Assembly (NCBI RefSeq): GCF_017163755.1
Contig: NZ_JAFIWC010000005.1
Location: forward strand, 62,001-126,000
Direction of reading: 5' to 3'
Length of the DNA: 64,000 nucleotides
DNA from: Xanthomonas sp.
GTDB lineage: Bacteria; Pseudomonadota; Gammaproteobacteria; Xanthomonadales; Xanthomonadaceae
This document shows, piece after piece, positions 44,431 through 59,272 of this stretch. Within the stretch, counting starts at the first letter, position 1, and each line of letters begins with the position of its first letter. The notes below the pieces were generated by a model. That model saw only the letters and a list, made by a program, of their open reading frames with translations. It had not been told where the DNA came from and searched no databases. A program made the translations under genes and the position numbers.

Positions 44431-46098
44431 ATGTTCGGCAAAATGAAAATCGGCGTCAGGCTGACGTGCGCGTTCCTGTTCGTGGCCGCGATCGGCGCGT
44501 GCATCGGCTGGATCGGCATCCTCAACTCCGGAAAGATCAACCACTACGCGACGCTGCTCTACGAACGCGAACTGCTCGGCCTGTCGAACCTGAAGGAAGC
44601 CAACATCAACCTGATCTACGCCGGCCGCGCGCGCTCCAACCTGCAGCTGGCCACCACCCAGGAAGACCGCGCCAAGCACATGGCCAGCATCGACCGGTAC
44701 ACCGCCAGCATGGTCGAGTACATGGACAAGGCCAGGGCCACCTTCGACAGCCCCGAGGCCAAGACCAAGCTGGATCGCTTCGACCAGGTGTGGAAGGAAT
44801 ACCTGGCGCGGCGCAACCAGTTCATCGAGATGGCCACGCAGCAGTCGTTGCCGGAGGCCAATCCGGAACTCATGGAATTGTCCAAGTCGGTGCGCAGTTC
44901 GTCCGATGAACTGGATGAGCTGATGACCGAGCTGAGCACGCTGAAGGAAGCCAACGCGGCGGCGGCCAGCGAGCAGACCGATGCGATCTATGCCAACGGC
45001 AGCAAGACCCTGATCGCGATCATCATCGCCGGTGTGGCGATCGGCATCGGCCTGGGCTTCGTCATCAGCCGCAGCGTCACCCGCCCCATCGAGCGCGCGG
45101 TCGAAGTCGCCAACGGCCTGGCCGAAGGCGACCTGACCATGCAGATCGAGACCCGCGGCACGGACGAAACCGCACAGCTGCTGCAGGCGATGCAGCGCAT
45201 GCTGGAAAAGCTGCAGCAGGTGGTGGGCGAGGTCAACGCCAGCGCGCAGAATCTCGCCGGCGCCTCGGAGGAAGTCAGCGCCACCGCGCAGTCGCTGAGC
45301 CAGGCGGCGACCGAACAGGCCGCCGGCGTGGAGGAAACCAGCGCGTCGCTGGAGCAGATGACCGCCTCGATCGGGCAGAACACCGAGAACGCGCGCATCA
45401 CCGACGGCATGGCCACGCAGGCGGCCAAGGAAACCGTCGAGGGCGGCGAGGCGGTGGTGGCCACCACCCAGGCGATGAAGCAGATCGCGCAGAAGATCGG
45501 CATCATCGACGACATCGCCTACCAGACCAACCTGCTCGCGCTCAACGCGGCGATCGAGGCCGCGCGCGCCGGCGAGCACGGCAAGGGCTTCGCGGTGGTC
45601 GCCGCCGAGGTGCGCAAGTTGGCCGAGCGCAGCCAGGTCGCCGCGCAGGAGATCGGCGAGGTCGCCGACAGCAGCGTGGAACTGGCCGACAAGGCCGGGC
45701 GCCTGCTGGAGACCATCGTGCCGAGCATCAAGAAGACCTCCGACCTGGTGCAGGAGATCGCCGCGGCGTCGCAGGAGCAGTCCTCGGGCGTGGCGCAGAT
45801 CAACTCGGCGGTGGTGCAGCTGAGCCAGACCACGCAGCAGAACGCCACCGCGTCCGAAGAGCTGGCCGCCACCGCCGAAGAGATGAGCACGCAGGCCGAA
45901 TACCTGCAGCAGACGATGTCCTTCTTCCGCCTGTCCATGGCCCCTGGCGCGCCGCGTACGCCGCGCGGCACGGAGAAGCCGAGCCTGGCGGCGCCCAGGG
46001 GCGTGAAGCTCGAGCCCAAGCGGATCCGCGCGCGCACGCCGGCGCCGGCCTATGCGATGGCCGAAGGCCCGGACGAATCCCAGTTCGCCAGCTTCTAG
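44431..46098 (+). CDS. methyl-accepting chemotaxis protein
   Basis: A 555-residue transmembrane chemoreceptor. The first membrane helix is at about residues 8-30. A periplasmic four-helix-bundle sensor domain (to about residue 190, rich in Lys, Glu, Asp) and a second helix at about 193-212 ([18 protein letters not shown]) follow. A HAMP domain starting [20 protein letters not shown] and a cytoplasmic signalling domain complete it, with the highly conserved tip [45 protein letters not shown] (quoted in part: [20 protein letters not shown]). The tail ends in QFASF with no CheR-docking pentapeptide of the NWETF type. The ATG at 44431 is chosen. A FliA promoter precedes and cheW follows. Confidence 0.95.
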
Positions 46099-46108
46099 GA
46101 GAGGCATC

Positions 46109-46651
46109 ATGCGCGACAACACGTTGAGTGCGATGCCTTCGCCGGCGCCGGCCGGCGACGAAACGGCCGCGGCGGTTCCGTCGCAGTTCCTGACCTTCTA
46201 CCTCGGCCAGGAGCTGTTCGGCCTGAGCATCCTCGGCATCAAGGAGATCATCGAGTACCGTGCGCCGACGCCGGTGCCGTCGATGCCGGCCTGCGTGCGC
46301 GGGGTGATCAACCTGCGCGGCGCGGTGGTGCCGGTGATGGACCTGCAACTGCGGCTGGGACGCAGCGCCGGCGGCGTGACCCGGCGCAGCTGCATCGTGA
46401 TCGTGGCGCTGGAGCAGGAACACGGCGCGCAGGCGATCGGGGTGCTGGTGGATGCGGTCAGCGAGGTGCTGGACATCCCGCTGGAGCAGATCGAGCCGGC
46501 GCCTTCGTTCGGCGCCGGCATACGCCGCGAGCTGCTGCACGGCATGGGCAAGCTCGGCGAGCGGTTCGTGATCCTGCTGGACCGGACGCAGATGCTCCGT
46601 GTCGACGAGATCGCCGCGATGGCGCCGCACGAGCAGGCGGTGGCCGCGTAG
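46109..46651 (+). CDS. cheW: chemotaxis coupling protein CheW
   Basis: CheW links chemoreceptors to the CheA kinase. The 180-residue single-domain protein has the family pattern FLTFYLGQELFGLSILGIKEI, then PACVRGVINLRGAVVPVMDL and GVLVDAVSEVLDI (parts quoted). Its first 25 residues are a Pro/Ala-rich extension. Start ATG 46109 follows a good ribosome site (AGGAGAGG) and lies ten bases after the chemoreceptor stop, so both share one transcript. The pairing suggests a dedicated coupling protein. Confidence 0.95.
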   Translation: MRDNTLSAMPSPAPAGDETAAAVPSQFLTFYLGQELFGLSILGIKEIIEYRAPTPVPSMPACVRGVINLRGAVVPVMDLQLRLGRSAGGVTRRSCIVIVALEQEHGAQAIGVLVDAVSEVLDIPLEQIEPAPSFGAGIRRELLHGMGKLGERFVILLDRTQMLRVDEIAAMAPHEQAVAA

Positions 46652-46731
46652 GACGGCGCCCGTGCCGCCGCCGGTACCTGGCCGCGGCGCAGGAAGCAAT
46701 GCGCCGCATCGCTGCGGCGCACCGGCCCGGG

Positions 46732-48195
46732 TTAGTGCTGCAAGGTCTGGATCGCGTGCGCGGGAATGGTGACGACGGCCGAGCGGTCGCGCACGTAGAA
46801 GTTGTAGGTGACCGCGGCATCGGTGGGGTTCATCACCACCGCGACCAGGCGCTGGTCTTCGTTGACGAAGGCGGTGGCCAGCAGCGTGCTGCGGCTGCTG
46901 CTGACCCCGACGCGCCGCGCATTGGGGCGGATGAACTTGGAGAAGTGGCCGATGTAGTAGTAGCTCGGCGTATAGATCAGCTCGCCGGTGGCGGTGTCGG
47001 CGTGGATCGGCGCGAAGCACCAGTTGCCGACGTGGTTGGGGCCGCCGTTCTGGTCCAGCAGGATGTTCCAGTCGGTCCAGCCGACCGCGCCGTTGTTGAG
47101 GTCGTTGATCATCGCGCTGCCGTAGCGCTCGGCGTTGGGCCAGTACTGGTAGCGCGAACGGTCGAACTTCTCCACCGACGCCTCGGTCAGCAGCACCGGC
47201 CTGTCCGGATACGCTTGGCTCACCGCGGCGACGTTGCGGTACATCGGCTCGAAGCCGGCCCAGGTCTCGTACCAGTGGAAGCCCAGGCCCCAGGCGTACT
47301 TCGCCGCTTCCGGGTCGTCGAAGATGACCTGCGCGCGGTACGCCATCATGTCCCGGTTGTGGTCCCAGACGATGATCTTCTTGTCGGCATAGCCGGCCGC
47401 GTGCATCGTCGGGCCCAGGTGGTTCTTGAGGAAATCGCGTTCCTGCTCGGCGGTGAACAGCATCGACTCCCACTTCTGCACCGCCATCGGCTCGTTCTGC
47501 ACGGTGATGCCCCAGATCGGCACGCCTTCCCGCTCGTAGGCCTGGATGAAGCGGGTGAAGTACTTGGCCCACGCCGCGGCGAACTCCGGGCGCAGCGCGC
47601 CGCCGCGCAGCATGTCGTTGTTGGTCTTCATGAACGCCGGCGCGCTCCATGGGCTGGCGAACAGGGTCAGCCTGCCGCCGGCCTGCTGGATCGCGCGCTT
47701 GATCATCGGGATGCGCGCCTTGCGGTCGTGCGCGATGGAAAAGCTGGCCAGCGCGCTGTCGCCTTCGTCGATGTAGGTGTAGCTGGCGGAACTGAAGTCG
47801 GAGCTGTGGATGGTGGTGCGCGCGAGCGAGTAGCCGATCCCGCGCTCCTTGTCGTAGTACGCGCGCAGCAGTTCGCTCTGCTTGCGCGGCGACAGCCGCG
47901 CGAAGACCTCGGCGCTGGCGTCGGTGATCGCGCCGCCGATGCCGAGCAGCGTCTGGTAGCGGCTGTCCGGCGCGACGAACACCGAGGTCTCCGCTTCGCT
48001 GAGCGCGTGCCCGGCGCGCAGCTCGACGCTGCCGCTGCGGCTCAGGCGCTGCTCGCCGCCCTGCGCGGTGGTGAAGATGGTCACCGTGGCGTTCGCGGCG
48101 GCGCTGCGCGGCGCGCGGTCGGCGGCGGTGGCGCGCCCGGCGCCGGCAAGCAGCAGGCCCAGCGTGGCGGCGGCAAGAAGCGGGTGGTTGTTCAT
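46732..48195 (-). CDS. secreted GH30 family glycosidase (glucosylceramidase-like)
   Basis: A 487-residue exported enzyme with a signal peptide (MNNHPLLAAATLGLLLAGAG, cleavage likely after ATA). The catalytic domain shows GIGGAITDASAEV, the acid/base Glu at 235 in TVQNEP and the nucleophile Glu at 338 in LLTEAS, in the right order and spacing for GH30. It ends with a small beta domain (NPTDAAVTYNFYVRD). GH30 members cleave beta-glucosides such as glucosylceramide or beta-1,6-glucan; which applies is unknown. It is divergent from the TonB receptor operon. The ATG at 48195 starts a proper signal peptide; a longer open frame upstream crosses the promoter region. Confidence 0.92.
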   Translation of the reverse strand: MNNHPLLAAATLGLLLAGAGRATAADRAPRSAAANATVTIFTTAQGGEQRLSRSGSVELRAGHALSEAETSVFVAPDSRYQTLLGIGGAITDASAEVFARLSPRKQSELLRAYYDKERGIGYSLARTTIHSSDFSSASYTYIDEGDSALASFSIAHDRKARIPMIKRAIQQAGGRLTLFASPWSAPAFMKTNNDMLRGGALRPEFAAAWAKYFTRFIQAYEREGVPIWGITVQNEPMAVQKWESMLFTAEQERDFLKNHLGPTMHAAGYADKKIIVWDHNRDMMAYRAQVIFDDPEAAKYAWGLGFHWYETWAGFEPMYRNVAAVSQAYPDRPVLLTEASVEKFDRSRYQYWPNAERYGSAMINDLNNGAVGWTDWNILLDQNGGPNHVGNWCFAPIHADTATGELIYTPSYYYIGHFSKFIRPNARRVGVSSSRSTLLATAFVNEDQRLVAVVMNPTDAAVTYNFYVRDRSAVVTIPAHAIQTLQH

Positions 48196-48299
48196 CGACG
48201 GCCTCGGCGAAGACGTGCGGCGGATGGGCCAGCGGCCGCGGCGCGGCCTCGCATGGCCGGTGCGCTGCGCTGCGACGTCGTGGCGTGCGGTGCGTGGAT

Positions 48300-48333
48300 G
48301 ACGTTGTCTAACGTCGCCGCCTTGCGCTGTCAA
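48300..48333 (-). promoter_or_regulatory. promoter and overlapping palindrome for the GH30 gene
   Basis: Read on the minus strand, TTGACA (48333-48328), 17 bases, and TAGACA (48310-48305) form a sigma-70-type promoter with a perfect -35. The palindrome GACGTT-N4-AACGTC (48300-48315) covers the -10 box, the usual place for a repressor operator. The regulator is not encoded in the window. Expected leader is about 100 bases. Confidence 0.6.
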
Positions 48334-48561
48334 TGCGCCGCGTGATCGGGCCAGACTGCGCCGACATCGCGCGCCAGGCTCCCTCGATTGTCGCCGCACG
48401 GACCCATGCCGGCCGATCGCCGCGGCGCGGACGCCGCCTGCGGCGGACGCGGACGCGTCGATGGTCGCCGCGGGAGGCCGCTTGGGGTGGGGCGTGCGTT
48501 CCGGCAGCACGGCCCGGCGGCGCCGCCGCGGCTGCGCTACGCTGCGCTGCAGCAGCGTTTT

Positions 48562-48578
48562 CAGGCGAATTGCGCCTG
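48562..48578. promoter_or_regulatory. candidate operator palindrome upstream of the TonB receptor
   Basis: CAGGCG-AATTG-CGCCTG is a perfect inverted repeat of six-base arms, 35 bases upstream of the TonB receptor -35 box. Its position suits an activator or repressor. It differs from the palindrome at 48300, so two regulators may act. Chance occurrence is possible in this GC-rich DNA. Confidence 0.35.
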
Positions 48579-48613
48579 CTTTGTGCCGCTTTCTTGCCGC
48601 TGGCGCGCGAAGT

Positions 48614-48642
48614 TTGACAAGTCGTATCGGCGCAGGTCCAAT
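48614..48642 (+). promoter_or_regulatory. promoter of the TonB receptor-halogenase operon
   Basis: TTGACA (48614-48619), 17 bases, TCCAAT (48637-48642): a perfect -35 and a four-of-six -10. Initiation near 48649 would leave a 70-base leader ending in the ribosome site GGGGAGGG before the ATG at 48719. Confidence 0.65.
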
Positions 48643-48718
48643 GCCGCCGGAAGTGCCAGGGCGGCGTTGCGCCCACGACGATAGACGCGTTTCGTGAATT
48701 TCCGGGGAGGGAAAATCC

Positions 48719-51700
48719 ATGAAGCAGGTGCAGTCCGTTCCGAAGCAGGCCGCATTGGCGTCCGCATTGCTGCTGGCGCTGTACAGCCCGGCCTGGGCGC
48801 AACAGACCGCACCGGCGGCGGCCGCCGATGCCGATCCGACCACGCTCGATGCGATCACGGTTACCGGCATTCGCGGCAGCCTCACCTCGTCGATGAACCT
48901 CAAGCGCGACGCGCAGGGCATCGTCGACGGCATCGTCTCCGAGGACATCGGCAAGTTCCCCGACACCAATCTGGCCGAATCGCTGCAGCGCATCAGCGGC
49001 GTGTCGATCGACCGCTCCAACGGCGAAGGCTCCAAGGTCACGGTGCGCGGCGTCGGCCCGGACTTCAATCTGGTGCTGTTGAACGGGCGGCAGATGCCGA
49101 CCTCGAGCATCGCCGACACCGGCGCGTCCAGCTCGCGCGCGTTCGATTTCGCCAACCTGGCCTCCGAGTCGATCTCCGCGGTGGAGGTGTACAAGACCGC
49201 GCGCGCCAGCACGCCCACCGGCGGCATCGGCGCCACCATCAACATCAAGACCGCGCGCCCGCTCGACACCCCCGGACTGCGCGCCAACGTCGGCCTCAAG
49301 GGCGTGTGGGACACCTCCAACGACAACGTGCCCGATTCGCTGCAGGGCGACAGCGTCACCCCGGAAGTGTCGGGCATCTTCAGCAACACCTCGGCCGACG
49401 GCCGATTCGGCATCGCGGTCAGCGGCAGCTACCAGGAACGCGACTACGGCTTCAGCCAGGTCGCGGTGGGCAACGGCTGGAAGACCTTCCACGGCGACGA
49501 GAACAACTGGGGCACGATCCCGCAGCCGGGCCAGCCCGGCTCGGAGAACATCGTCAACCGTCCCGGCCCGGACGACATCTATTCGGTGCCGCAGAACCTC
49601 AACTACAACGTCAACGGGGTCAAGCGCGAGCGCACCAACGGCCAGCTGACGCTGCAATTCAAGCCGACCGACCGCGTCACCACGACGCTGGACTACACCT
49701 ATTCGGAAAACAAGATCCAGACCCAGCGCAACGAGATGTCGGTGTGGTTCAACTTCGGGCCTTCGTCCAGCGCCTGGACCGACGGCCCGGTCGCCGCGCC
49801 GGACCTGTACTCGGAAACCATCCCGTTCACCCAGGACGCGTCCGGGCAGTACTTCGGCAGCGACATGGCCTTCGGCGGCGGCAAGAGCGCCACCAAGAAC
49901 CAGAACAAGTCGCTCGGCTTCAACGTCGAGTGGGAAGTCACCGACAGCCTGAACATGGCGCTGGACTACCACGACTCCACCGCCACCTCCGGCGCCGACA
50001 GCCCGTACGGGTCCAGCGGCGTGCTCGGCACGGCGGGGTTCTTCCGCGGCACCACCAGCGCCGATTTCTCCGGCGATTTCCCGGTGCTCAACGTGCAGCT
50101 GCCGCCGGGCATGGACCAGATCGATCCGGCGTACATGCAGGTGACCGGGTCCTCGTTCCGCAACAGCTACATGAAGTCGGAGATCAAGCAGCTCCAGCTC
50201 AGCGGCGACTTCCAGTTCGAGAATTATTCCAAGCTGGACTTCGGCGTCGGCTCGACCGAGGTGCGCAACCGCTCGGCGTACTCGGTGGTGCAGCTGGACA
50301 CCTGGGGCGGCGCCACCAGCCCGGACGACTATCCGGACGAGGTCTGGCAGCTCGACAACATGGGCCGCTACTTCGACCAGTTCGGCGGCCACGACGATCC
50401 CGACTTCACCGACGCGTTCTTCGTGTGGGACTTCGACACCGTGCGCCAACTGGCCGAGGACGCCTGGGTGCGCAATGGCGGCGACCCGGCCGACTACCGC
50501 GCCTCCAACGTCTTCACCACCGACCGCCGCACCACCGAGAAGTCCAAGAGCGCCTACCTGCAGTGGAGCAACACCTGGGACCTGGCGCTGCCGGTCAGCC
50601 TGGCGCTGGGCGTGCGCTACGAGAAGACCGACGTCACCTCCGATGCGCTGGTGCCCAGCGCCACCGGCATCTCCTGGGGCTCGGCCAACGAGCTGTCGAT
50701 CATCGAGGGGCCGGCCGAGTTCACCCGCCTCACCGGGTCGTACCGCTACTGGTTGCCGAGCCTGGACTTCAGCGTGGACCTGAACGAGTCGATGAAGCTG
50801 CGCGCCAGCTACGGCAAGACCATCGGCCGCCCCGGCTGGGCCGACATCCAGGGCGGGCAGACGCTCGACACGCTGGTGCGCGTGGACGGCGGCACCGGCG
50901 CGCAGGGCAACCCGGGGCTGCGGCCGCTGCTGTCCAACAACTACGACGTGTCCTTCGAGTGGTACTACGGCGAAGGCAGCTACGTGTCGGCCGGCTATTT
51001 CCGCAAGGACATCGACAACTACATCGGCACCACGCAGGTGGTCGGCACGCCGTTCGACCTGCACACGCCGGTCGGCGGCGCGTACTGGAACGAGGCGATC
51101 GGCGCCGGCTGCGCCGGCAGCGACGTGGTCTGCATCCGCAACTACATCTTCGACAACCACAACGGCGAAGGCGGGGTCACCCAGACCGGCGTGGATTCCA
51201 CCGGCAACCGCACCGGCACCATCGTCGGACAGGCCGGCGATCCGCTGGCGCAGTTCCGCATCAACACCCCAGCCAACCAGAAGTCGGCCACGCTCGACGG
51301 CTGGGAGTTCAACATCCAGCACCTGTTCTGGGACAGCGGCTTCGGCCTGTCGGCCAACTACACCATCGTCGATTCCGGGCTGACCTACGACAACTACGTG
51401 ATCGGCGAGCAGTTCGCGCTGGAAGGGCTCAGCGACTCGGCCAACTTCGTCGCGTTCTACGACAAGGGGCCGTGGCAGGTGCGCGCGGCCTACAACTGGC
51501 GCGACGAGTTCCTGTCCGGCCGCTTCGACGGTTCCGGCCCCAACCCGAACTACGTCGAGGCCTACGGCCAGCTGGACATGAACGTGAGCTACGCGTTCAA
51601 CGAACGCCTGACGTTCTCGCTGGAGGGCATCAACCTGACCGACGAGACCCAGCGCATCCACGGACGCCACAGCAACCAGCTGCTGTTCGCGACCCAGACC

Positions 51701-51739
51701 GGGCCACGCTACATGTTCGGCGTGCGTTACAAGTTCTGA
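48719..51739 (+). CDS. TonB-dependent receptor (Xanthomonas/Caulobacter type)
   Basis: A 1006-residue outer-membrane active transporter. The signal peptide MKQVQSVPKQAALASALLLA ends near AWAQ. The TonB-box region TLDAITVTGIRGSL follows. The plug domain has DIGKFPDTNLAESLQRISGV, GSKVTVRGVGPDFNLVLLNGRQMP and VEVYKTARASTPTGGIGATINIKTARP (parts quoted). The 22-strand barrel ends in the typical aromatic terminus FGVRYKF. The plug signature is that of the large-receptor subfamily tied to carbohydrate uptake in Xanthomonas and Caulobacter. Divergent GH30 and downstream halogenase genes fit such a locus. Substrate unknown; a glycoside released by GH30 is a reasonable guess. Confidence 0.95.
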   Translation: MKQVQSVPKQAALASALLLALYSPAWAQQTAPAAAADADPTTLDAITVTGIRGSLTSSMNLKRDAQGIVDGIVSEDIGKFPDTNLAESLQRISGVSIDRSNGEGSKVTVRGVGPDFNLVLLNGRQMPTSSIADTGASSSRAFDFANLASESISAVEVYKTARASTPTGGIGATINIKTARPLDTPGLRANVGLKGVWDTSNDNVPDSLQGDSVTPEVSGIFSNTSADGRFGIAVSGSYQERDYGFSQVAVGNGWKTFHGDENNWGTIPQPGQPGSENIVNRPGPDDIYSVPQNLNYNVNGVKRERTNGQLTLQFKPTDRVTTTLDYTYSENKIQTQRNEMSVWFNFGPSSSAWTDGPVAAPDLYSETIPFTQDASGQYFGSDMAFGGGKSATKNQNKSLGFNVEWEVTDSLNMALDYHDSTATSGADSPYGSSGVLGTAGFFRGTTSADFSGDFPVLNVQLPPGMDQIDPAYMQVTGSSFRNSYMKSEIKQLQLSGDFQFENYSKLDFGVGSTEVRNRSAYSVVQLDTWGGATSPDDYPDEVWQLDNMGRYFDQFGGHDDPDFTDAFFVWDFDTVRQLAEDAWVRNGGDPADYRASNVFTTDRRTTEKSKSAYLQWSNTWDLALPVSLALGVRYEKTDVTSDALVPSATGISWGSANELSIIEGPAEFTRLTGSYRYWLPSLDFSVDLNESMKLRASYGKTIGRPGWADIQGGQTLDTLVRVDGGTGAQGNPGLRPLLSNNYDVSFEWYYGEGSYVSAGYFRKDIDNYIGTTQVVGTPFDLHTPVGGAYWNEAIGAGCAGSDVVCIRNYIFDNHNGEGGVTQTGVDSTGNRTGTIVGQAGDPLAQFRINTPANQKSATLDGWEFNIQHLFWDSGFGLSANYTIVDSGLTYDNYVIGEQFALEGLSDSANFVAFYDKGPWQVRAAYNWRDEFLSGRFDGSGPNPNYVEAYGQLDMNVSYAFNERLTFSLEGINLTDETQRIHGRHSNQLLFATQTGPRYMFGVRYKF

Positions 51740-51769
51740 GCAGCGGCCGCGCCGGGTCCCGGGACGCAG

Positions 51770-51795
51770 GCGCCGTGGGGGATCGCCCACGGCGC
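51770..51795 (+). terminator. intercistronic hairpin between receptor and halogenase
   Basis: GCGCCGTGGG, loop GGATCG, CCCACGGCGC: a perfect ten-pair stem 30 bases after the receptor stop, with no T-tract. It more likely protects the receptor mRNA 3' end or dampens read-through than terminates fully. The halogenase GTG starts 41 bases later. Confidence 0.45.
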
Positions 51796-51836
51796 GCCCG
51801 GCCCGGCCGCCTGGCGCGGCCCATGAAGGTGCACGG

Positions 51837-53390
51837 GTGAATCCTGCGATCAGGCACGTGGTCATCGTCGGCGGCGGCTCGGCCGGCTGGCTGACCGCGG
51901 CGGTCATCGCCGCCGAGCATTGCACCGCGCAACCGCACGGCCTGCGGGTGACCCTGCTCGAATCGCCCGAGGTCAGCACGGTCGGGGTAGGCGAGGGCAC
52001 CTGGCCGAGCATGCGCGACACGCTGCGCCGGGTCGGCGTGAGCGAGACCGCGTTCGTGCGCGAATGCGACGCGGCGTTCAAGCAGGGCTCCAAGTTCGTG
52101 CGCTGGAGCCAGGACGACGCGCAGGACCAGTACCACCATCCCTTCGTGCTGCCCGAGGGCTACCTGGACACCAACCTGGTCGCCGGCTGGCAGCGGCACC
52201 GGCACCTGCCGTTCGGCCGGCTGGTCAGCTTCCAGCCGCAGCTGTGCGAGGCGGGCAAGGCGCCCAAGCAGTTCGCCACGCCCGAATACGCCGCCGTGGC
52301 CAACTACGCCTACCACCTGGACGCGGCCAAGCTCGGCGCGTTCCTGCGCGAGCACTGCGTGGGTCGCCTGGGCGTGGCGCACGTGCGCGACCATGTGGAT
52401 GCGGTCAACGCCCACGAGAACGGCGACATCGCCTCGCTGCGCACGCGCGAGCACGGCGATATCGCCGGCGACCTGTTCGTCGACTGCAGCGGGATGCGCG
52501 CGCTGCTGCTGGGCAGGCACTACGGGATCGCGCTGGAGCCCATGCACGACATCCTGTTCAACGACCGTGCGATCGCGCTGCAGCTGCCGTACGCCGACGC
52601 GGATGCGCCGATCGCCTGCCAGACCGTGTCCACCGCCCAGCGCCATGGCTGGATCTGGGACATCGGCCTGCACAGCCGGCGCGGCGTGGGCTACGTGTAT
52701 TCCGCCGCGCATGCCAGCGACGAAGACGCCGAGCGCACGCTGCTGCGCTACGTCGAGGCCAGCGGCGCCCGCCCGGCCGACATCGCGCGCAGCAACCGGC
52801 TCGGCTTCCAGCCCGGCTACCGCCGCACCGCATGGCACCGCAACTGCGTGGCGATCGGCCTGTCCAGCGGCTTCGTCGAGCCGCTGGAAGCCTCGTCGCT
52901 GGTGCTGGTCGAGCTGGCCGCGGCGATGCTGCGCGACGAGATGCCGGCCACGCGCGAGGCGATGGAGATCGTCGCCCGGCGCTTCAACGACGCCTTCGCC
53001 TACCGCTGGGAGCGGGTGGTGGACTTCCTCAAGCTGCACTACGTGCTCAGCCGCCGCACCGATTCGGACTACTGGCACGAGCACCGCCGCGCGCAGAGCG
53101 TGCCCGAGCGCCTGCGCGAACTGCTCGCGCTGTGGCGGCAGCAGCCGCCGTCGCGCTACGACTTCCCGCGCAGCGAGGAGATCTTCCCGTCGGCGAGCTA
53201 CCAGTACATCCTGTACGGCATGGGCTTCGATCCCGAGCCGCGGCCGAACCCGCGGCGGATGGACGACGTGCGCCGCGCCGAGCAGTGCTTCGGCCAGGCC
53301 GATGCGCGCGCGCGGCAGATGCTTGCGGCGCTGCCCGGCCATCGCGAGCTGCTCGAGCACATCCGCCTGCGCGGCATGCCCACCCTCTAG
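51837..53390 (+). CDS. flavin-dependent halogenase-like protein 1 (tryptophan halogenase family)
   Basis: A 517-residue FAD enzyme of the tryptophan halogenase family. The FAD-binding GGGSAGW is at residues 12-18, then GVGEGTWPSM. The catalytic lysine equivalent is K82 in FKQGSKFVRW. The WxWxIP motif is altered to WIWDIG (W272, W274), and the chloride-site loop reads PLEASSL rather than PLESTG. These changes leave real halogenation uncertain. The start is GTG at 51837, whose G-T-G-A overlaps the stop of a five-codon frame (ATG at 51823); no other start gives the Rossmann motif. It precedes the SapC-like gene by 12 bases. Confidence 0.88.
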   Translation: MNPAIRHVVIVGGGSAGWLTAAVIAAEHCTAQPHGLRVTLLESPEVSTVGVGEGTWPSMRDTLRRVGVSETAFVRECDAAFKQGSKFVRWSQDDAQDQYHHPFVLPEGYLDTNLVAGWQRHRHLPFGRLVSFQPQLCEAGKAPKQFATPEYAAVANYAYHLDAAKLGAFLREHCVGRLGVAHVRDHVDAVNAHENGDIASLRTREHGDIAGDLFVDCSGMRALLLGRHYGIALEPMHDILFNDRAIALQLPYADADAPIACQTVSTAQRHGWIWDIGLHSRRGVGYVYSAAHASDEDAERTLLRYVEASGARPADIARSNRLGFQPGYRRTAWHRNCVAIGLSSGFVEPLEASSLVLVELAAAMLRDEMPATREAMEIVARRFNDAFAYRWERVVDFLKLHYVLSRRTDSDYWHEHRRAQSVPERLRELLALWRQQPPSRYDFPRSEEIFPSASYQYILYGMGFDPEPRPNPRRMDDVRRAEQCFGQADARARQMLAALPGHRELLEHIRLRGMPTL

Positions 53391-53402
53391 GACCCAGCGA
53401 CC

Positions 53403-54110
53403 ATGACCCGGCACGTGCAGTTGGACCATGCCCAGCACCGCGATCTGCGCATCGACACGCGGCGCAGCGCCGCGCTGGGCGATGCGGTGATGGCCGCGCT
53501 GACCTTCCCGGGCGAGTTCCGCAACCTGCAGGCGCATTACCCGATCGTGTTCCGCAAGAGCCGGCTCGGCGAGTTCCAGCCGGTGGCCCTGTTCGGCTTC
53601 GGCGAAGGACAGAACCTGTTCCTGGACGCGCGCGGCTGGGACGCGAGCTACGTGCCGCTGGCGATCGAGCGCCAGCCGTTCCTCGTCGGTGTCGCCGGCG
53701 ACGAGCGGGTGGTGCACCTGGATCTGGACAGCCCGCGGGTGTCGGCCAGCGGCGACCAGGCGCTGTTCCTGGAGTTCGGCGGCAACAGCGCCTACCTGGA
53801 CCGGATCACCTCGGTGCTGGCGACGCTGGACGAAGGCCTGCGCGCCACGCCGGCGTTCGTCGCGCTGCTGCTGCAGCACCAGTTGCTGGAGTCGTTCGTG
53901 CTGGACGTGGAACTGGACGACGGCTCGCGCAACCGCCTTGCCGGCTTCTACACCATCGACGAGGACCGCCTGCGCGCGCTCGACGCCCAGGCCCTGCACC
54001 AGCTGCACCAGGCCGGGCTGCTGGAGCCGGTCTACATGGCGCTGGCGTCGATGTCGAACTTCCGCGCGCTGATCGAGCGGATGAACCGCCACCATGCTGC
54101 CGATCGCTGA
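53403..54110 (+). CDS. SapC-like protein
   Basis: A 235-residue soluble protein of the SapC family, named after a Campylobacter S-layer locus protein. The family segments FRNLQAHYPIVFRKS, FQPVALFGFGEGQNLFLD, YVPLAIERQPFLV and LLQHQLLESFVLDVELDDGS are present (parts shown). No signal peptide is seen. The biochemical function of this family is not established. It is embedded between two halogenase genes and a cupin gene, as in related TonB-receptor loci. Its last 17 bases overlap the cupin gene, so translation is coupled. Confidence 0.88.
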   Translation: MTRHVQLDHAQHRDLRIDTRRSAALGDAVMAALTFPGEFRNLQAHYPIVFRKSRLGEFQPVALFGFGEGQNLFLDARGWDASYVPLAIERQPFLVGVAGDERVVHLDLDSPRVSASGDQALFLEFGGNSAYLDRITSVLATLDEGLRATPAFVALLLQHQLLESFVLDVELDDGSRNRLAGFYTIDEDRLRALDAQALHQLHQAGLLEPVYMALASMSNFRALIERMNRHHAADR

Positions 54111-55110
54111 GGCCGTGCGCGAAGTCCACGGCGCCGATGCGCAGGCGCTGCCGGACGCGTTGCTGTGCGCCACCCAGCCGCTGGTGCTGCGCGGCGTGGT
54201 GGCGCACTGGCCGCTGGTCCGCGCGGCGCTGGCGTCGCCGCAGGCGGCGGTGGACTACCTGCGGCGCTTCGCCCGCAGCGAAGCGCCGGTGGCGGTGATG
54301 GTCGCCGCGGCGTCGGCCGGCGGGCGCCTGTTCTATAACGAGGACCTGAGCGGCTTCAATTTCCACAGCGAACGCCCGCCGCTGGGCGCGGTGCTCGACG
54401 CGATGCTGCGGCACCTGGACGACGCGCAGGCGCCCACGCTGTACATGGGCTCCACCACGGTCGACACCTTCCTGCCCGGGCTGCGCGCCGAGAACGACAT
54501 CGCGCTCGGCCAGCGCCAGGCCTTGTTCAGCGTATGGCTCGGCAACCGCACCCGCATCGCCGCGCACCAGGACGTGCCGGACAACCTGGCCTGCGTGGCC
54601 GCCGGCCATCGCCGCTTCATCCTGTTCCCGCCGGAGCAATTGGCCAACCTGTACATCGGTCCGCTGGATTTCACCCCGGCGGGGCAGGCGGTCAGCCTGG
54701 TGGACTTCGCCGCGCCGGACCATGCCCGCTTCCCGCGCTTCGCCGAGGCGCTCAAGCAGGCGCAGGTCGCCGAGCTGGGGCCGGGCGATGCGATCTTCAT
54801 CCCCAGCATGTGGTGGCACCACATCGAGGCGCTGGACGGGTTGAACGTGCTGCTGAACTACTGGTGGCGGCAGTCGCCGCCACACATGGATTCGCCGATG
54901 AACGCGCTGATGCTGGCGCTGATGAGCGTGCGCGACCTGCCGCCGGCGCAGCGCGCCGCGTGGCAGGAGACGTTCCGCCACTACGTGTTCGACGCCGACG
55001 CGGCCACCGCCGAGCACGTTCCGCCGCAGGCGCGGCGCGTGCTGGCGCCGATGACCCCCGAGCTGTCGCGCGAGCTGCGCGCGCGCCTGCTCAAACGACT
55101 GAACCGCTGA
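54094..55110 (+). CDS. cupin_8 / JmjC-like protein (possible Fe(II) oxygenase)
   Basis: A 338-residue protein with a cupin_8 fold. The candidate iron ligands are H158 and D160 in AAHQDVPDN and a C-terminal His in WWHHIEAL (H242 or H243). Family segments AGHRRFILFPPEQLANLYIG and VAELGPGDAIFIPSMWWHH follow the usual order. Such proteins are often 2-oxoglutarate hydroxylases of proteins or small molecules; here neither substrate nor activity is known. It overlaps the SapC gene and ends 11 bases before halogenase 2, so the four genes are a tight unit. The ATG at 54094 gives the normal N-terminus. Confidence 0.88.
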   Translation: MLPIAEAVREVHGADAQALPDALLCATQPLVLRGVVAHWPLVRAALASPQAAVDYLRRFARSEAPVAVMVAAASAGGRLFYNEDLSGFNFHSERPPLGAVLDAMLRHLDDAQAPTLYMGSTTVDTFLPGLRAENDIALGQRQALFSVWLGNRTRIAAHQDVPDNLACVAAGHRRFILFPPEQLANLYIGPLDFTPAGQAVSLVDFAAPDHARFPRFAEALKQAQVAELGPGDAIFIPSMWWHHIEALDGLNVLLNYWWRQSPPHMDSPMNALMLALMSVRDLPPAQRAAWQETFRHYVFDADAATAEHVPPQARRVLAPMTPELSRELRARLLKRLNR

Positions 55111-55121
55111 AGGACGACGAG

Positions 55122-56633
55122 ATGAACCAGACCGATTCCACCCCCGTGCCGGAGCGCCCGGTCAGACGCGTGGTCATCGCCGGCGGCGGCACCGCGGGCT
55201 GGATGGCGGCGGCGGCGCTGTCGAAGGTGATGGGCAAGCTGCTGGACATCACCCTGGTCGAGTCCGAGGAGATCGGCACCATCGGCGTCGGCGAGGCCAC
55301 GATTCCCACCCTGGTGACCTTCCACCGCCTGCTGGAGATCAAGGAACAGGCGTTCATGGCCGCAACCCAGGCGACGATCAAGCTGGGCATCTCCTTCGAG
55401 CACTGGCGCGACCTGGACCAGCACTACATCCATTCCTTCGGCACCACCGGCAAGGACCACTGGACCGCCGGCTTCCAGCATTTCTGGCTCAAGGGCCAGG
55501 CGCGGCGGCTGGCCGGCGACTACAGCGAGTACTGCCTGGAGTCGCGCGCCGCGCAGCAGGGCCGTTTCGCGCACCTGCCCAACGGCGGCATGAACTACGC
55601 GTTCCATATGGACGCGGGCCTGTACGCGAAATACCTGCGCAGCTTCAGCGAAGGCTTCGGGGTCCGGCGCGTGGAGGGCAAGATCGCGCAGGTGCGTACC
55701 GATCCGGTGTCCGGCTACATCACCGCGCTGAAGCTGGAGTCCGGCGACGAGATCGAAGGCGAGCTGTTCATCGACTGCACCGGCTTTCGCGCGCTGCTGA
55801 TCGGGCAGGCGCTGGGCGTGGATTTCGAGGACTGGTCGCACTGGCTGTTCAACGACAGCGCGCTGGCGTTGCAGACCGCCTCGGTGCGCGAGGCGGTGCC
55901 GTACACGCGCGCGATCGCCGGCGCGTCCGGATGGCAATGGCGCATCCCGCTGCAGCACCGGGTCGGCAACGGCATCGTCTATTCCAGCCGCTACCTGGAC
56001 GACGACGCGGCGCTGCGCACGCTCCAGGCCAGCGTCGAGGGCGAGCCACTCACCACGCCGCGGCCGATCCGCTTCAAGCCCGGACGGCGGCTGAAGTGCT
56101 GGCACAAGAACTGCGTGGCGCTGGGCCTGGCCGGCGGCTTCATCGAGCCGCTGGAGTCGACCACCATCCACCTGATCCAGCGCGGCATCACCCGCTTGAT
56201 GCAGAGCTTTCCGCAGGTGGTGCGCCAGCCGGACATCGACGAATACAACGCGCAGATCGACGAGGAGATCCAGCACGTGCGCGACTTCGTGGTGCTGCAC
56301 TTCCACGTCACCCGGCGCCAGGACACGCCGTACTGGCGCGCCTGCCGCGAGATGTCTATTCCGGCGACGCTGCGCCACCGCATCGAGCTGTTCCGGCAGA
56401 CCGGCCGCGTGTTCCGGGTGCCGAACGAGTTGTTCGCCGAGAACTCGTGGATCCAGGTCATGCTCGGGCAGGGCATCGTGCCGCAGCAGCATCATCCGGT
56501 CGCCGACCTGATGGGCGATCGCGAACTGTCGCAGTTCCTCGACGGCATCCGCGCGCGGGTCGACAAGACCCTGCGCCAGCTGCCCAGCCACCAGGCCTAC
56601 CTGGAAAGCTACTGCCCGGGCGTGCGCGGCTGA
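55122..56633 (+). CDS. flavin-dependent halogenase-like protein 2 (tryptophan halogenase family)
   Basis: A 503-residue FAD enzyme with a fuller set of halogenase motifs than protein 1. It has GGGTAGW at residues 21-27, GVGEATIPT, the catalytic Lys K87 in TIKLGISFEHW, the complete WQWRIP motif (W271, W273) and PLESTTIHL at the halide loop. It belongs to the branch found beside TonB receptors in Xanthomonas and Caulobacter, some members of which have been described as brominating indole-type substrates; I recall this from Xanthomonas campestris enzymes. A reductase partner is not visible nearby. It is the last gene of the operon. Confidence 0.92.
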   Translation: MNQTDSTPVPERPVRRVVIAGGGTAGWMAAAALSKVMGKLLDITLVESEEIGTIGVGEATIPTLVTFHRLLEIKEQAFMAATQATIKLGISFEHWRDLDQHYIHSFGTTGKDHWTAGFQHFWLKGQARRLAGDYSEYCLESRAAQQGRFAHLPNGGMNYAFHMDAGLYAKYLRSFSEGFGVRRVEGKIAQVRTDPVSGYITALKLESGDEIEGELFIDCTGFRALLIGQALGVDFEDWSHWLFNDSALALQTASVREAVPYTRAIAGASGWQWRIPLQHRVGNGIVYSSRYLDDDAALRTLQASVEGEPLTTPRPIRFKPGRRLKCWHKNCVALGLAGGFIEPLESTTIHLIQRGITRLMQSFPQVVRQPDIDEYNAQIDEEIQHVRDFVVLHFHVTRRQDTPYWRACREMSIPATLRHRIELFRQTGRVFRVPNELFAENSWIQVMLGQGIVPQQHHPVADLMGDRELSQFLDGIRARVDKTLRQLPSHQAYLESYCPGVRG

Positions 56634-56799
56634 TGCGCGAATGGGCGGCGCGCGGCGGCGGGCATGGTGCGCCGCGTCGTGGCGCAGTCCGCCGGGGAAC
56701 GTCGTTGCGCGACGGCAGCCGCCGGCGCCGCCGCGCCATGGCGCGGGCACATCGGACACGCCGGAAACCAGCAAGGCGCAGATTGCCGCCTGAACGAGA

Positions 56800-56829
56800 A
56801 AGGGCCGGACGGTTTCCCGTCCAGCCCTT
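56800..56829 (-). terminator. terminator-like hairpin between halogenase 2 and tRNA-Ala
   Basis: A 13-pair stem (AAGGGCCGGACGG and CCGTCCAGCCCTT, loop TTTC) lies 22 bases beyond the tRNA-Ala 3' end as read on the minus strand. It is followed there by TCTCG, and on the plus strand by CGTTTTCTC. It may stop both the tRNA transcript and the halogenase operon. Confidence 0.55.
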
Positions 56830-56851
56830 CGTTTTCTCGCGCAAATCAAGA

Positions 56852-56927
<76 letters not shown>

Positions 56928-57210
56928 ACATCAGACGCGTATTCTAGCCGGCCGCGGGCGTCCGTGCCAAGAGGGCGCGGCGGACGATCGGGACGTCGCT
57001 GCGCTGGCCGTGGCGCCGCTGGCGCTCGCCGGCCGCGCACCGCCCGGATGCGGCGCCCGGGTACGGGCCAGGAAGCCGCGGATGGGCAGCCGGCCGGCCG
57101 ATCGGATATGCCGGGAACCCAGGCGGCTGTTCGGCCATGGTTCGACTACGACCACGGGCCGACGCCGATGCCCGACGCCGGGCGCGCCGGCAACGGCGAG
57201 AGGGAACCGA

Positions 57211-57216
57211 TATAAT
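57211..57216 (+). promoter_or_regulatory. TATAAT box of the H-NS-family gene
   Basis: A perfect TATAAT at 57211-57216, rare in DNA this rich in G+C, lies 90 bases upstream of the H-NS-like ATG. The -35 region at 57188-57193 (CGGCAA) is poor. It is the best candidate promoter for this gene. Confidence 0.5.
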
Positions 57217-57305
57217 CGCGCATCGAAACCGTCGATTGATGGTTCTCGTCGTTCCGGACGCATGTTCCGTCCGATCACACTAGTTTATTCACGGGTCTTC
57301 GAAAC

Positions 57306-57707
57306 ATGACGGAAGTTCGCAACTTGCAGCAAATCGCCGAAGCCAAGGCCAAGCTCCACGAGGAAATCCGCAAGCTCGAGGAGCAGGAGAAGCAGGCGCG
57401 CGAAGGCGAAACCAATGCCGCGCACGCCAACGTGCTGTCGCTGCTGGAGCAGTTCTCCGAGTATTTCAGCGCCAAGCAGCGCAGCGAGATCGCGGCCTAC
57501 GTGACCGCCGCCGCGCCGAAGGCGGCCAAGTCCGCCGCCGGCGGCCGCAGCGAGGTCAAGCCCAAGTACCAGCTGCCGCATACCGGCGAGACCTGGTCCG
57601 GCCGTGGCCGCACGCCCAAGTCGTTCGCGGCATGGGAAGGCACGGCGGCCTACAAGGAATGGAAGGCCCGGCATCCGGACCTGAAGTTCCCGCTGGTCAA
57701 ATACTGA
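57306..57707 (+). CDS. H-NS family nucleoid protein
   Basis: A 133-residue H-NS-like protein. The N-terminal half (residues 1-65) is a charged coiled coil for dimer formation (LQQIAEAKAKLHEEIRKLEEQE). The C-terminal domain carries the DNA-binding loop TWSGRGRTPKSF, after a PKYQLPHTGE linker, and ends KARHPDLKFPLVKY. Such proteins silence A+T-rich or acquired genes; xanthomonads have several copies, and some affect virulence. It has its own promoter-like TATAAT and a clear terminator, so it is monocistronic. Which of the several xanthomonad paralogues this is cannot be decided here. Confidence 0.92.
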   Translation: MTEVRNLQQIAEAKAKLHEEIRKLEEQEKQAREGETNAAHANVLSLLEQFSEYFSAKQRSEIAAYVTAAAPKAAKSAAGGRSEVKPKYQLPHTGETWSGRGRTPKSFAAWEGTAAYKEWKARHPDLKFPLVKY

Positions 57708-57736
57708 TCGGTCAGCGATCGGACAAAAACTTAAAG

Positions 57737-57761
57737 AGGCCGGGTTTTCCCGGCCTTTTTT
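57737..57761 (+). terminator. intrinsic terminator of the H-NS-family gene
   Basis: AGGCCGGG, loop TTTT, CCCGGCCT with a TTTTT tail, 30 bases after the stop codon; perfect eight-pair stem. Confidence 0.95.
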
Positions 57762-58074
57762 ATTGGCGATATTCCGTCGATCCGGCAGCAGCGGCGCATC
57801 TGCGGATGGCCGGTGAAGAACCTCGACGACGCACGCGCACGCATCGTCTTTGGGATGCAGCCGCGGATACGCAATCCTGACCCGGCCGCGCATCGGAACA
57901 ATGCTCGTCGAGCGGCTGCACCCGGACGCCGCTGTCCATCGAGGCGGCGACAGCCATCGTTGGTCCGGAGGCATGCGGCGAAGCGGCGCGGCGTGGCAGG
58001 TTGTTCGCTCCCGCCGAACGCGCGCATGGGCTGCACGCGGCGTGGCGCCAGGGGCGATGCCACCGGTCACACCG
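57762..58074. other. convergent intergenic region, nothing recognised
   Basis: This 313-base region lies between the terminator of the H-NS-family gene and the 3' end of rnd on the other strand. Open frames here are shadow-like and none resembles a known protein. I see no convincing terminator for rnd. Confidence 0.35.
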
Positions 58075-59187
58075 TCAGCCGCGTTGTGTGGCCCCTGCGG
58101 CCGCTGCGTCCGTCGCCAGCAGCGGCTGCAGCGTCGCTTCGAGCACGCCGCGCCGCCAGCCCGCCAGCGGCGCCGGCCACTGCCCGCTTTCCAGCAGCGC
58201 TTCCAGATGCTTGCGCGAGGCCAGCAGGCCGTCGGCCAGGCCCAGTTCGGCGCTGTGCGCCGCCACCGCGTCCTGCAGGCGCTTGAGCGCGGCCTTGTTG
58301 TCGTCGCTGGCGGCCAGCGCCAGCGGCGCCTGCGCCTCGTCGTGCAACGGCGTGGTCAGCGCCTGCCACAGCGCGTCGCCGAGCTTGCGCGGCGCCTTGG
58401 GATGGCGGTCCAGCTGGGCCTGCAGGGCCGCGCGGTCGGTCGGCGGAAAGCGCGCCAGCGCCGTCGCCAGTTCGTTGTCCAGGATCCAACTGCGCGGCTT
58501 GTCGCTCTGCCGCGCCTGCACGTCGCGCCAGCGCAGCAGGCGCAGCAGGCGCTGCTGCGCCGGCGGGTCCATGAACTGCGCCGCGCGCATGCCCAGGTGC
58601 GGCCAGCGTTCGCCGTCGTCGTGCTCGACGCTGCCGAGCAGGCGCTCGCCGTCCTCGCGCAGCCAGCCGCCGCGGTCCAGCGCCTCGAGCCTGGCGACCA
58701 GCGCGTCGTGGATCGCGAACAGATGGCGCACGTCGTCGGCGGCGTATTCCAGCTGCGCCGGCGACAGCGGGCGGCGCAGCCAGTCCGAGCGGGTCTCGCC
58801 CTTGGCCAGGTGCACGCCGGTGATCTCCAGCACCAGTTTCTGGTAGCCCATGCCGGCGCCGATGCCGGCCAGGCCGGCGCCGATCTGGGTGTCGAACAAC
58901 GGCCGCGGCAGGACGCCGCAGGCGCATTTGAACGCGACCAGGTCTTCGCTGGCGCTGTGCATCACCTTGAGGATGTCCGGGTCGGTCAGCCACGGCGCCA
59001 GCGCCTGCGGCATGCCGGGGATCAGCGGGTCGATCAGCAGGATCTCCTCGCCCACCGCCATCTGCACCAGCGCCAGCTGCGGCCAGTAGGTGCGTTCGCG
59101 GACGAATTCGGTATCCAGGCCGATCCTGGCCGGGCGCTGCGCCAGCCGTTCGGCCAGCTCGGCGGGTTGCTTGATCCAATAGGGCAC
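58075..59187 (-). CDS. rnd: ribonuclease D
   Basis: RNase D trims the 3' ends of tRNA and other stable RNA precursors. The 370-residue protein has the DEDDy exonuclease residues D25 and E27 in GLDTEFVRE, D82 in HSASEDL, and Y148 and D152 in YAADD. An HRDC domain follows (for example RLLRLLRWRDVQARQSDKPR), with a second one likely. The start is a GTG at 59187, giving MPYWIKQPAELAE; no ATG is available nearby. A same-length reading frame in another register is a shadow. It is divergent from the lipoprotein gene, 85 bases away. Confidence 0.96.
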   Translation of the reverse strand: MPYWIKQPAELAERLAQRPARIGLDTEFVRERTYWPQLALVQMAVGEEILLIDPLIPGMPQALAPWLTDPDILKVMHSASEDLVAFKCACGVLPRPLFDTQIGAGLAGIGAGMGYQKLVLEITGVHLAKGETRSDWLRRPLSPAQLEYAADDVRHLFAIHDALVARLEALDRGGWLREDGERLLGSVEHDDGERWPHLGMRAAQFMDPPAQQRLLRLLRWRDVQARQSDKPRSWILDNELATALARFPPTDRAALQAQLDRHPKAPRKLGDALWQALTTPLHDEAQAPLALAASDDNKAALKRLQDAVAAHSAELGLADGLLASRKHLEALLESGQWPAPLAGWRRGVLEATLQPLLATDAAAAGATQRG

Positions 59188-59272
59188 GTGGTTTCCGTCG
59201 AATGCAGGGTTTGCTCAGGCAGGCGAGAATAGCCTAACGTCGGCCCGCCGGCCGCAAGGCGGGTTGTTTCCA

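Follow-up and report, generated by a model that had tools for sequence, protein, structure and literature searches.

A TonB receptor gene in a conserved row with halogenase, SapC and JmjC-type cupin genes in Xanthomonas: a possible receptor-linked maturation module beside a GH30 glycosidase

In a stretch of 64,000 nucleotides of Xanthomonas DNA (the window), a GH30 glycosidase gene lies next to a row of genes for a TonB receptor (TBDR), two proteins of the flavin-dependent halogenase family (FDH1 and FDH2), a SapC family protein and a Cupin_8 protein. The same gene order is kept in many relatives, which suggests that these bacteria may chemically modify their uptake receptor or some protein connected with it. 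As a reading of this arrangement, a modified receptor or surface protein would be the best.

Organisation of the locus

The six genes make up a segment of about 10.2 kb between a CheW-like gene and a tRNA-Ala gene (Table 1). The first-pass annotation had described a glycosidase divergent from a tightly packed row of five genes with a hairpin behind the receptor gene, and this description stands. The five genes occupy 48719-56633 on the forward strand, and the successive gaps along TBDR, FDH1, SapC, Cupin_8 and FDH2 are 97, 12, -17 (an overlap) and 11 bases. The interval between TBDR and FDH1 has a folding energy of -71.2 kcal/mol, with a z-score of -3.74 relative to 200 dinucleotide shuffles; it contains no T run and is absent from the window's terminator list. 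Among 53 FDH1-bearing relatives, 36 have a strong fold (z < -2, with 40 approximate dinucleotide shuffles per sequence) in the corresponding position, and the hairpin is a possible processing or attenuation element.

Table 1. Features of the segment and its boundaries (positions in the window)
Feature	Position	Strand	Remarks
CheW-like gene	46052..46651	+	Pfam CheW; left boundary, outside the system
GH30 glycoside hydrolase	46732..48195	-	487 aa; PF02055 267 bits (cut-off 23), PF17189 50 bits
TBDR, TonB-Xanth-Caul subfamily	48719..51739	+	1006 aa; TIGR01782 662 bits (cut-off 310)
Intergenic hairpin, TBDR/FDH1	51740..51836	+	RNA-fold calculation; no T run
FDH1, flavin-dependent halogenase family	51837..53390	+	GTG start; PF04820 390 bits (cut-off 21)
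SapC family protein	53403..54110	+	PF07277 232 bits (cut-off 28.9)
Cupin_8 / JmjC-type protein	54094..55110	+	PF13621 233 bits
FDH2, flavin-dependent halogenase family	55122..56633	+	PF04820 641 bits (cut-off 21)
Short ORF	56641-56793		Within the segment, <100 aa; from the ORF list
tRNA-Ala (CGC)	56852..56927	-	Right boundary, outside the system

The CheW and tRNA-Ala flanks lie less than 0.9 kb apart in 15 of 19 congeneric genomes, and congeneric matches to the left flank stop at about position 46645. Since a single segment is absent at this site in those 15 congeners, the GH30 gene probably belongs with the other five. FDH1 is missing from all 19 congeners, which favours a gain of the six-gene segment in the window's lineage rather than its loss elsewhere. 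GC content is 0.690 in the segment, compared with 0.706 and 0.716 in its two flanks. When 46550-46800 was compared with 56780-56960 for insertion repeats, neither a direct repeat of more than 8 bases nor an inverted repeat of at least 10 bases was found. No regulator or inner-membrane transporter is present among the six genes, while both are common in relatives.

Conservation and carbohydrate neighbourhood

Among 80 named SapC relatives, FDH2 is found in 80, the cupin in 78, the receptor in 76 and FDH1 in 61, in a survey that was drawn with the module's SapC as query and is thus biased toward module loci. The order TBDR-(FDH1)-SapC-Cup-FDH2 is kept across the 80 loci, and because it recurs in at least 17 named genera the arrangement cannot be put down to chance. 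In these 80 loci the module was never seen free of a receptor: each of the 76 loci whose contig reaches far enough has a TBDR, the contigs of the other four ending before the receptor position. Among the six families looked for in the 80 loci, no candidate substrate gene other than the receptor was seen to be constant. Four pairs of loci (L046/L162, L047/L164, L054/L204 and L058/L177) are apparently the same locus in two collections, and the class-survey SapC matches G420:C165, G333:C9, G137 and G204 were left out of the locus set.

The proposal that all these genes form one system is supported for the five genes, whose order is kept, and, as far as sequence comparison goes, fairly well for GH30. 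In 9 of the 80 relatives a GH30 gene is oriented divergently to the module, and in two more it lies on the + strand. Some orthologues of the module have no recognised glycosidase nearby: among FDH1-bearing loci of at least 18 kb, 23 of 70 have no GH3, GH16, GH1 or GH30 recognised within about 10 kb, a count partly inflated by under-calling in low-GC genomes, and none is annotated in the Sphingomonas parapaucimobilis module stretch.

The genes that accompany the module differ from locus to locus and include GH3, GH16, GH30, GH1, glucokinase and LacI. Further neighbours are GH36 and GH18; agarase and beta-galactosidase; alpha-galactosidase; GH43, GH115 and xylanase; and GH95, while some loci carry an M19 dipeptidase or an amino-acid permease. 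By gene names, the sugars concerned are beta-glucan, agar, galactosides and xylan. The first-named group of neighbours rests in part on scans that covered 96 of the 255 ORFs picked downstream and 103 of the 276 picked upstream, with the 25 commonest families shown; the flank tally used an ORF picker biased toward high GC, by which low-GC loci appeared empty, and of 165 flanking ORFs from 22 loci, 62 ORFs, belonging to 12 of these loci, were scanned separately.

Predicted activities of the proteins

FDH1 and FDH2 are halogenase-like enzymes by sequence, and halogenation is their predicted reaction. The closest solved relative of FDH1 is 2pyx (554 bits) and that of FDH2 is 6y1w (Xcc4156, 817 bits), with 6frl (BrvH) at 474 bits. 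Alignment with SttH (5hy5) places the Lys and Glu that we take to be the halogenase catalytic residues at K82 and E348 of FDH1, invariant in 62/62 aligned sequences, and at K87 and E342 of FDH2, invariant in 79/79. The glycines of the FAD motif GxGxxG are kept in 61/62 FDH1 sequences (one row is gapped) and in 79/79 of FDH2, the window proteins being included in all these counts. The final P of WxWxIP occurs in 78/79 FDH2 sequences, whereas 61/62 FDH1 sequences have WxWxIG. Against the QhpG family profile the two proteins reach 35.3 and 20.9 bits, respectively, below the curated cut-off of 240.

The Cupin_8 protein, by family and fold comparison, is predicted to be an Fe(II)/2-oxoglutarate oxygenase of the JMJD5/FIH type. 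It shares sequence, fold and the HxD...H iron ligands (79/79) with these residue hydroxylases and differs from them in being bacterial and in carrying Arg173 (79/79) where the alignment has a Lys of FIH, which presumably binds 2-oxoglutarate. SapC has a confident AlphaFold model (pLDDT 93), for which a comparison with the PDB found no matching solved fold; its family, presumably named for S-layer proteins of Campylobacter fetus, is widespread (53 of 369 class genomes). The glycosidase has the GH30 family fold and resembles an endo-1,6-beta-glucanase, with 243 bits for NF053856, short of the curated cut-off of 700; it is probably secreted, judging by eye from its signal peptide. Both plug and barrel domains were found in the receptor.

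Linkage of halogenases and receptors

A match to PF04820 at E <= 1e-60 occurs in 63 of 398 sampled phylum genomes. From each genome the survey took the best listed match and so leans toward the FDH2 type; three of the 63 genomes had already been sampled, three lacked a listed position, 57 were chosen and 40 were analysed. In 37 of these 40 one-per-genome loci (32 of 34 without SapC, 5 of 6 with it), a TonB receptor lies within about 0.5 kb of the halogenase/SapC cluster, by distances read by eye from the locus listing. As for the other three, one has a receptor 2.0 kb off, one has none and one sits on a contig of just 6 kb. Two to four halogenases per receptor were seen in this survey. The window's own genome has four strong halogenases in three loci, each adjoined by a TonB-type receptor.

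Lone SapC genes are frequent, a halogenase being absent from 59 of the 102 SapC loci. A TIGR01782-type TBDR accompanies 42/43 SapC loci with a halogenase against 1/59 without, and any receptor-like match is found in 43/43 against 6/59 (one of the 43 and eight of the 59 being shorter than 12 kb). Only two of the 23 receptors of the own genome above the TIGR01782 cut-off sit in SapC-halogenase loci, so such receptors manage without a linked halogenase. Distances between TBDRs and between FDH2s are strongly correlated (rho 0.90, 115 SapC-bearing pairs), which linkage alone could explain. Without SapC, co-divergence of TBDR and halogenase is weak (rho 0.165, 30 pairs), with ambiguous pairing owing to arrays of several halogenases per locus.

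When receptor tryptophans were screened for a link to halogenases, clean support did not emerge. Seven tryptophans are near-invariant in module receptors, and six of the seven are also present in a pair of Pseudoalteromonas receptors whose examined stretches lack a halogenase. A tryptophan signature of halogenase linkage was therefore rejected, as the pattern mainly tracks the receptor subfamily. Trp343 is W in 13/13 halogenase-linked receptors against 2/9 unlinked ones in a control set and, in a larger set, in 107/108 module receptors against 25/46 with a halogenase but no SapC; this aligned position is kept as a lead only. The overall tryptophan content differs little: it is 1.63% in module receptors (108), 1.44% in those with a halogenase only (51) and 1.36% in those without halogenase (nine, mostly other receptor types).

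Proposed mechanism and alternatives

The segment would serve the uptake of a glucan with probable beta-1,6/1,3 linkages, and would have been gained, or lost elsewhere, as one piece. GH30 would cut the extracellular polymer and the resulting oligosaccharides would cross the outer membrane via the TBDR. FDH1, SapC, the cupin and FDH2 would leave the sugar alone and act as a cytoplasmic maturation module, in which the task of FDH1 and FDH2 would be the halogenation (or oxygenation) of tryptophans or tyrosines, and that of the JmjC-type cupin the hydroxylation of a residue, in a polypeptide before its export. SapC may be the binding or presenting partner that delivers the substrate to the enzymes. 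The polypeptide would most likely be the receptor itself, and the benefit could, for example, lie in a change of stability or of ligand binding, or in protection from receptor-using phages and bacteriocins. We hold this scheme, a glucan-uptake unit with a receptor-linked maturation module acting on a polypeptide and most likely on the receptor, only tentatively and put its chances somewhat below even. Its narrower form, a receptor-maturation system in which paired halogenases and a JmjC hydroxylase modify SapC-presented residues of the cognate TonB receptor, is a possibility that we consider rather doubtful. We know of no halogenation or hydroxylation of outer-membrane proteins of this kind in bacteria.

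The modified polypeptide might be a different one: TonB, for instance, or a secreted or surface-layer protein, or else a peptide that the receptor brings in. The name SapC comes from S-layer proteins, the 59 of 102 SapC loci devoid of halogenase mean that SapC may serve other envelope proteins, and some module loci carry the dipeptidase or permease mentioned above; however, the receptor is the only constant candidate substrate gene among the families looked for, and we regard another target as unlikely. It is distinctly unlikely that the enzymes produce a diffusible halogenated, possibly hydroxylated metabolite, derived for instance from indole or a peptide, as a signal or weapon made on meeting a polysaccharide, the receptor being co-regulated or retrieving the product. 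Free indole is indeed accepted by Xcc4156 and BrvH according to the accessible parts of the respective papers (PMC7336383, PMC5945002), but its low turnover made the authors of the latter doubt that indole is the natural substrate of BrvH; moreover, halogenase copies go together with TonB receptors and no other segment gene of at least 100 aa fits a scaffold or an exporter.

The first-pass annotation had also considered modification of an imported aromatic glycoside. The enzymes seem to be cytoplasmic, no signal peptide having been spotted by eye, and their genes adjoin that of an importer; they could act on the imported ligand or on an aromatic aglycone of it, and release of the aglycone by GH30 or GH3 is conceivable. 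However, the same module also stands beside agar, glucan, galactoside and xylan genes, and these sugars mostly lack an electron-rich aromatic ring; because the sugar varies while the module stays, an aromatic cargo is unlikely to be the halogenase substrate. Two to four halogenases per receptor would also be odd for sugar catabolism, and we disfavour ligand modification as the least probable of the alternatives. Highly unlikely as well is an ordinary carbohydrate locus whose flavoproteins, though similar to halogenases, work simply as monooxygenases or redox partners and do not halogenate. This would agree with the replacement of WxWxIP by WxWxIG in FDH1 and with the relative QhpG acting as an oxygenase (PMC7876137, as far as its accessible text goes), but the halogenase Lys and Glu are invariant in all aligned FDH1 and FDH2 sequences and Xcc4156, the nearest solved relative of FDH2, halogenates indole derivatives (accessible text of PMC7336383).

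Relation to known systems and significance

A literature search, with subscription journals mostly outside its reach, found no paper joining these genes. Papers on Xanthomonas xylan loci reportedly mention some of them. Carbohydrate utilisation loci with TonB receptors are termed CUT or PUL, and the locus in the window resembles them in its TIGR01782 TBDR and glycosidase, as do many relatives in their LacI, GH3, GH16 and glucokinase genes. It differs by the added four-gene module, which has no known role in sugar breakdown, and by the lack of a regulator or inner-membrane transporter among the called genes of the segment.

Action on a polypeptide has precedents, described here from the accessible parts of the cited papers. 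The flavoprotein QhpG, whose substrate channel resembles that of halogenases, introduces two hydroxyl groups into a tryptophan of a still cytoplasmic polypeptide that is exported afterwards (PMC7876137), and ChlH halogenates peptidic tryptophan (PMC12518702). Similarity of the module to QhpG/LodB shows in NCBIfam scores of just 35 and 23 bits, far under the cut-offs (240 and 400), and no quinoprotein gene is called in the segment. Xcc4156 and BrvH take indole and not free tryptophan, a peptide substrate having been proposed (PMC7336383, PMC5945002), and a second halogenase gene adjoins brvH (PMC5945002). FDH2 shares the catalytic residues and WxWxIP with both, but the accessible text on these enzymes calls the native substrate unknown and mentions no receptor, SapC or cupin, whereas FDH1 and FDH2 are part of a fixed receptor operon.

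Many genomes hold "tryptophan halogenase" genes without a known product, and relatives have been assayed on indole-type compounds since their native substrates are unknown (PMC7336383, PMC5945002, in the parts accessible). The present survey points the search for halogenase substrates to the adjoining TonB receptor and singles out SapC, for which no matching fold was found, as a likely partner. If the proposal is true, modification of the receptor would tune ligand uptake or mask the receptor from phages and bacteriocins.

Gene organization of the locus

In the first-pass annotation, a GH30 glycosidase gene had been placed divergently from an operon of five genes, and both ORF calls and family profiles confirm each of them at its coordinates. 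The operon encodes a TonB-dependent receptor of the TIGR01782 type (TBDR) followed by the module proper: SapC, a Cupin_8 protein and two members of the flavin-dependent halogenase family PF04820 (FDH1 and FDH2).

Features of the GH30, receptor and halogenase locus (window coordinates)
Feature	Coordinates	Strand	Remark
GH30	46732-48195	minus	
TBDR	48719-51739	plus	
FDH1	51837-53390	plus	start codon GTG
SapC	53403-54110	plus	
Cupin_8	54094-55110	plus	
FDH2	55122-56633	plus	
50-aa ORF	56641-56793	plus	between FDH2 and tRNA-Ala, from ORF listing

From TBDR to FDH2, successive genes are separated by 97, 12, -17 and 11 bases. The 97-base gap folds into a very stable hairpin that lacks a T run. Since the same gap is strongly folded in 36 of 53 relatives bearing FDH1, the hairpin may set the receptor to enzyme ratio.

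Halogenases accompany TonB receptors

Halogenase matches to PF04820 (E <= 1e-60) are present in 63 of the 398 genomes sampled from the phylum, in 97 of 200 from the order and in 6 of 143 from the class. When one locus per genome was followed in 40 of the 57 genomes chosen from the phylum survey, a TonB receptor lay within about 0.5 kb of the halogenase cluster in 37; among the remaining three, the receptor was at 2.0 kb in one, none was seen in another and the third was a 6-kb contig. SapC is missing from 34 of the 40 loci. Since 32 of these 34 are among those with a near receptor, the halogenases are associated with the receptor and not with SapC. At some loci (L238, L239, L257), four halogenases stand by a single TonB receptor without SapC, two of the divergent copies having been checked; Cupin_8 also occurs in the arrays of L239 and L257.

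SapC matches were found in 29 of 60 relatives (own genome counted) and in 53 of 369 genomes of the class. We analysed 102 SapC loci, 100 from the surveys and two from the own genome. Among the 43 with a halogenase, a TBDR of this type is present in 42 and some receptor-like match in all; for the 59 without halogenase, 8 of which are stretches shorter than 12 kb, the figures are 1 and 6. A further survey revealed a single gene order throughout 80 named loci. FDH2 is present at all 80 (truncated by a contig end at a few), the cupin at 78, TBDR at 76 (at the other four the contig ends first) and FDH1 at 61. The genera include Pseudoxanthomonas, Lysobacter, Luteimonas, Massilia, Duganella, Steroidobacter, Paucibacter, Aquabacterium and Oleiagrimonas.

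Several further loci were noted. The own genome has a second module copy lacking FDH1 (contig C19, L012 8390-15216). Next to it come genes for an M19 membrane dipeptidase, a further TonB receptor and an amino-acid permease, of which the dipeptidase gene also occurs at module loci of seven congeners. On contig C6 (L014 8962-11583), a solitary SapC gene is flanked by genes for a Porin_5 protein and a chemotaxis receptor; no halogenase was seen there. On C32 (L013 9041-13788), a halogenase adjoins a receptor of the OMP_b-brl_4 type that carries a carboxypeptidase-regulatory domain, and a long F5/8 C-type protein lies beyond this receptor. In Catenovulum (L272 10636-11352), a DUF6445 gene, for which a solved relative was not found, adjoins a receptor-halogenase pair. 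An Asticcacaulis sp. DW145 plasmid (L284 5875-11949) encodes a related TonB receptor without halogenase, then a sulfotransferase, an aspartyl/asparaginyl beta-hydroxylase and a TPR-sulfotransferase, possibly another receptor-linked group of residue-modifying enzymes. Finally, FDH2 relatives appear in 76 phage records, mainly of cyanophages; the two most similar, at 50% and 46% identity, come from unannotated contigs of human faecal samples.

Carbohydrate genes often surround a constant module

Among the flanking ORFs scanned at the named loci (96 of 255 downstream, 103 of 276 upstream), LacI was found 8 times downstream and 23 upstream, GH3 5 and 11 times, and glucokinase 3 and 7 times; GH16 (9) and GH30 (5) were found upstream, and sugar transporters were also present. 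GH3, GH16, GH1 or GH30 occur in at least 47 of the 70 FDH1-bearing loci of >=18 kb, and any carbohydrate marker in at least 52; for the 41 loci without FDH1, the counts are at least 19 and at least 21. Low-GC loci contribute further GH3, GH16, GH18 and GH36. On annotated plasmids, glycosidase genes lie in the stretch for 11 of 12 halogenase-linked receptors, with none annotated for the twelfth, and judged by gene names they address differing sugars. Five related receptors have no halogenase within the stretch, and one record carried no annotation. The GH30 of the window resembles endo-1,6-beta-glucanase, albeit with a score below the curated cut-off, which suggests beta-glucan as the likeliest cargo here.

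Presence or absence in the genus

Window DNA 44300-59190 was compared with 20 genus genomes, the own one among them. Fifteen of the other 19 (G003, G004, G005, G007-G015, G017-G019) have a left-flank match that stops near 46.6 kb and a right-flank match that starts only 495-867 bases after it, at window 56852 (the tRNA-Ala edge) in G013 and at 57.19-57.25 kb in the other 14, which leaves no space for a segment of about 10 kb. In G006 about 5 kb separates the flanks, and in G001 they are rearranged; for G002 and G016, the matches listed do not include the left flank. FDH1 occurs in 1 of the 20 genomes, matches elsewhere being at 35-39%, the level of other halogenases. Because the segment is missing between these flanks and FDH1 is so confined, the sequence comparison indicates that GH30 and the five genes were gained, or lost elsewhere, as a single unit of about 10.2 kb. 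A search of the segment edges found no flanking repeats.

What the module may modify

The catalytic residues of the module enzymes are invariant in alignments, which for the halogenases included solved halogenases. The best solved relative of FDH2 is Xcc4156 (817 bits; the halogenase at the other SapC locus of the own genome scores 527 bits to it). Xcc4156 is reported to accept indole and its derivatives and not to halogenate free Trp, and the authors who described it carry the notion of a peptide substrate over to this enzyme (PMC7336383). Cupin_8 is JMJD5/FIH-like both by sequence and by fold (model pLDDT 92). The SapC model is confident (pLDDT 93), and its fold matched nothing in the searches made against solved structures.

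As the module is constant while the cargo genes vary, its substrate should be constant too, and would be the receptor or another polypeptide. Both enzyme types argue for a polypeptide, since JmjC hydroxylases act on residues in polypeptides and so do relatives of the FDHs. The latter are QhpG (PMC7876137) and ChlH (PMC12518702). The module enzymes would act in the cytoplasm, ahead of export, for which QhpG offers a precedent (PMC7876137).

Receptor and FDH2 distances are correlated (rho 0.855 over 145 pairs, a value that none of 200 permutations reached), rho being 0.904 in the 115 pairs with SapC and 0.165 in the 30 without. Linkage alone could also give such a correlation, and a direct search for a residue signature in receptors tied to halogenases was unsupportive. 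Maturation of the receptor by the module is a tentative reading, which we consider somewhat less probable than not. A polypeptide other than the receptor could also be the constant substrate, and we regard its modification as unlikely.

Every gene family involved is known and the names already stand in database annotation; no paper joining halogenase, SapC, cupin and TonB receptor was found in the literature searched. We class the locus as a carbohydrate locus carrying an unexplained module.
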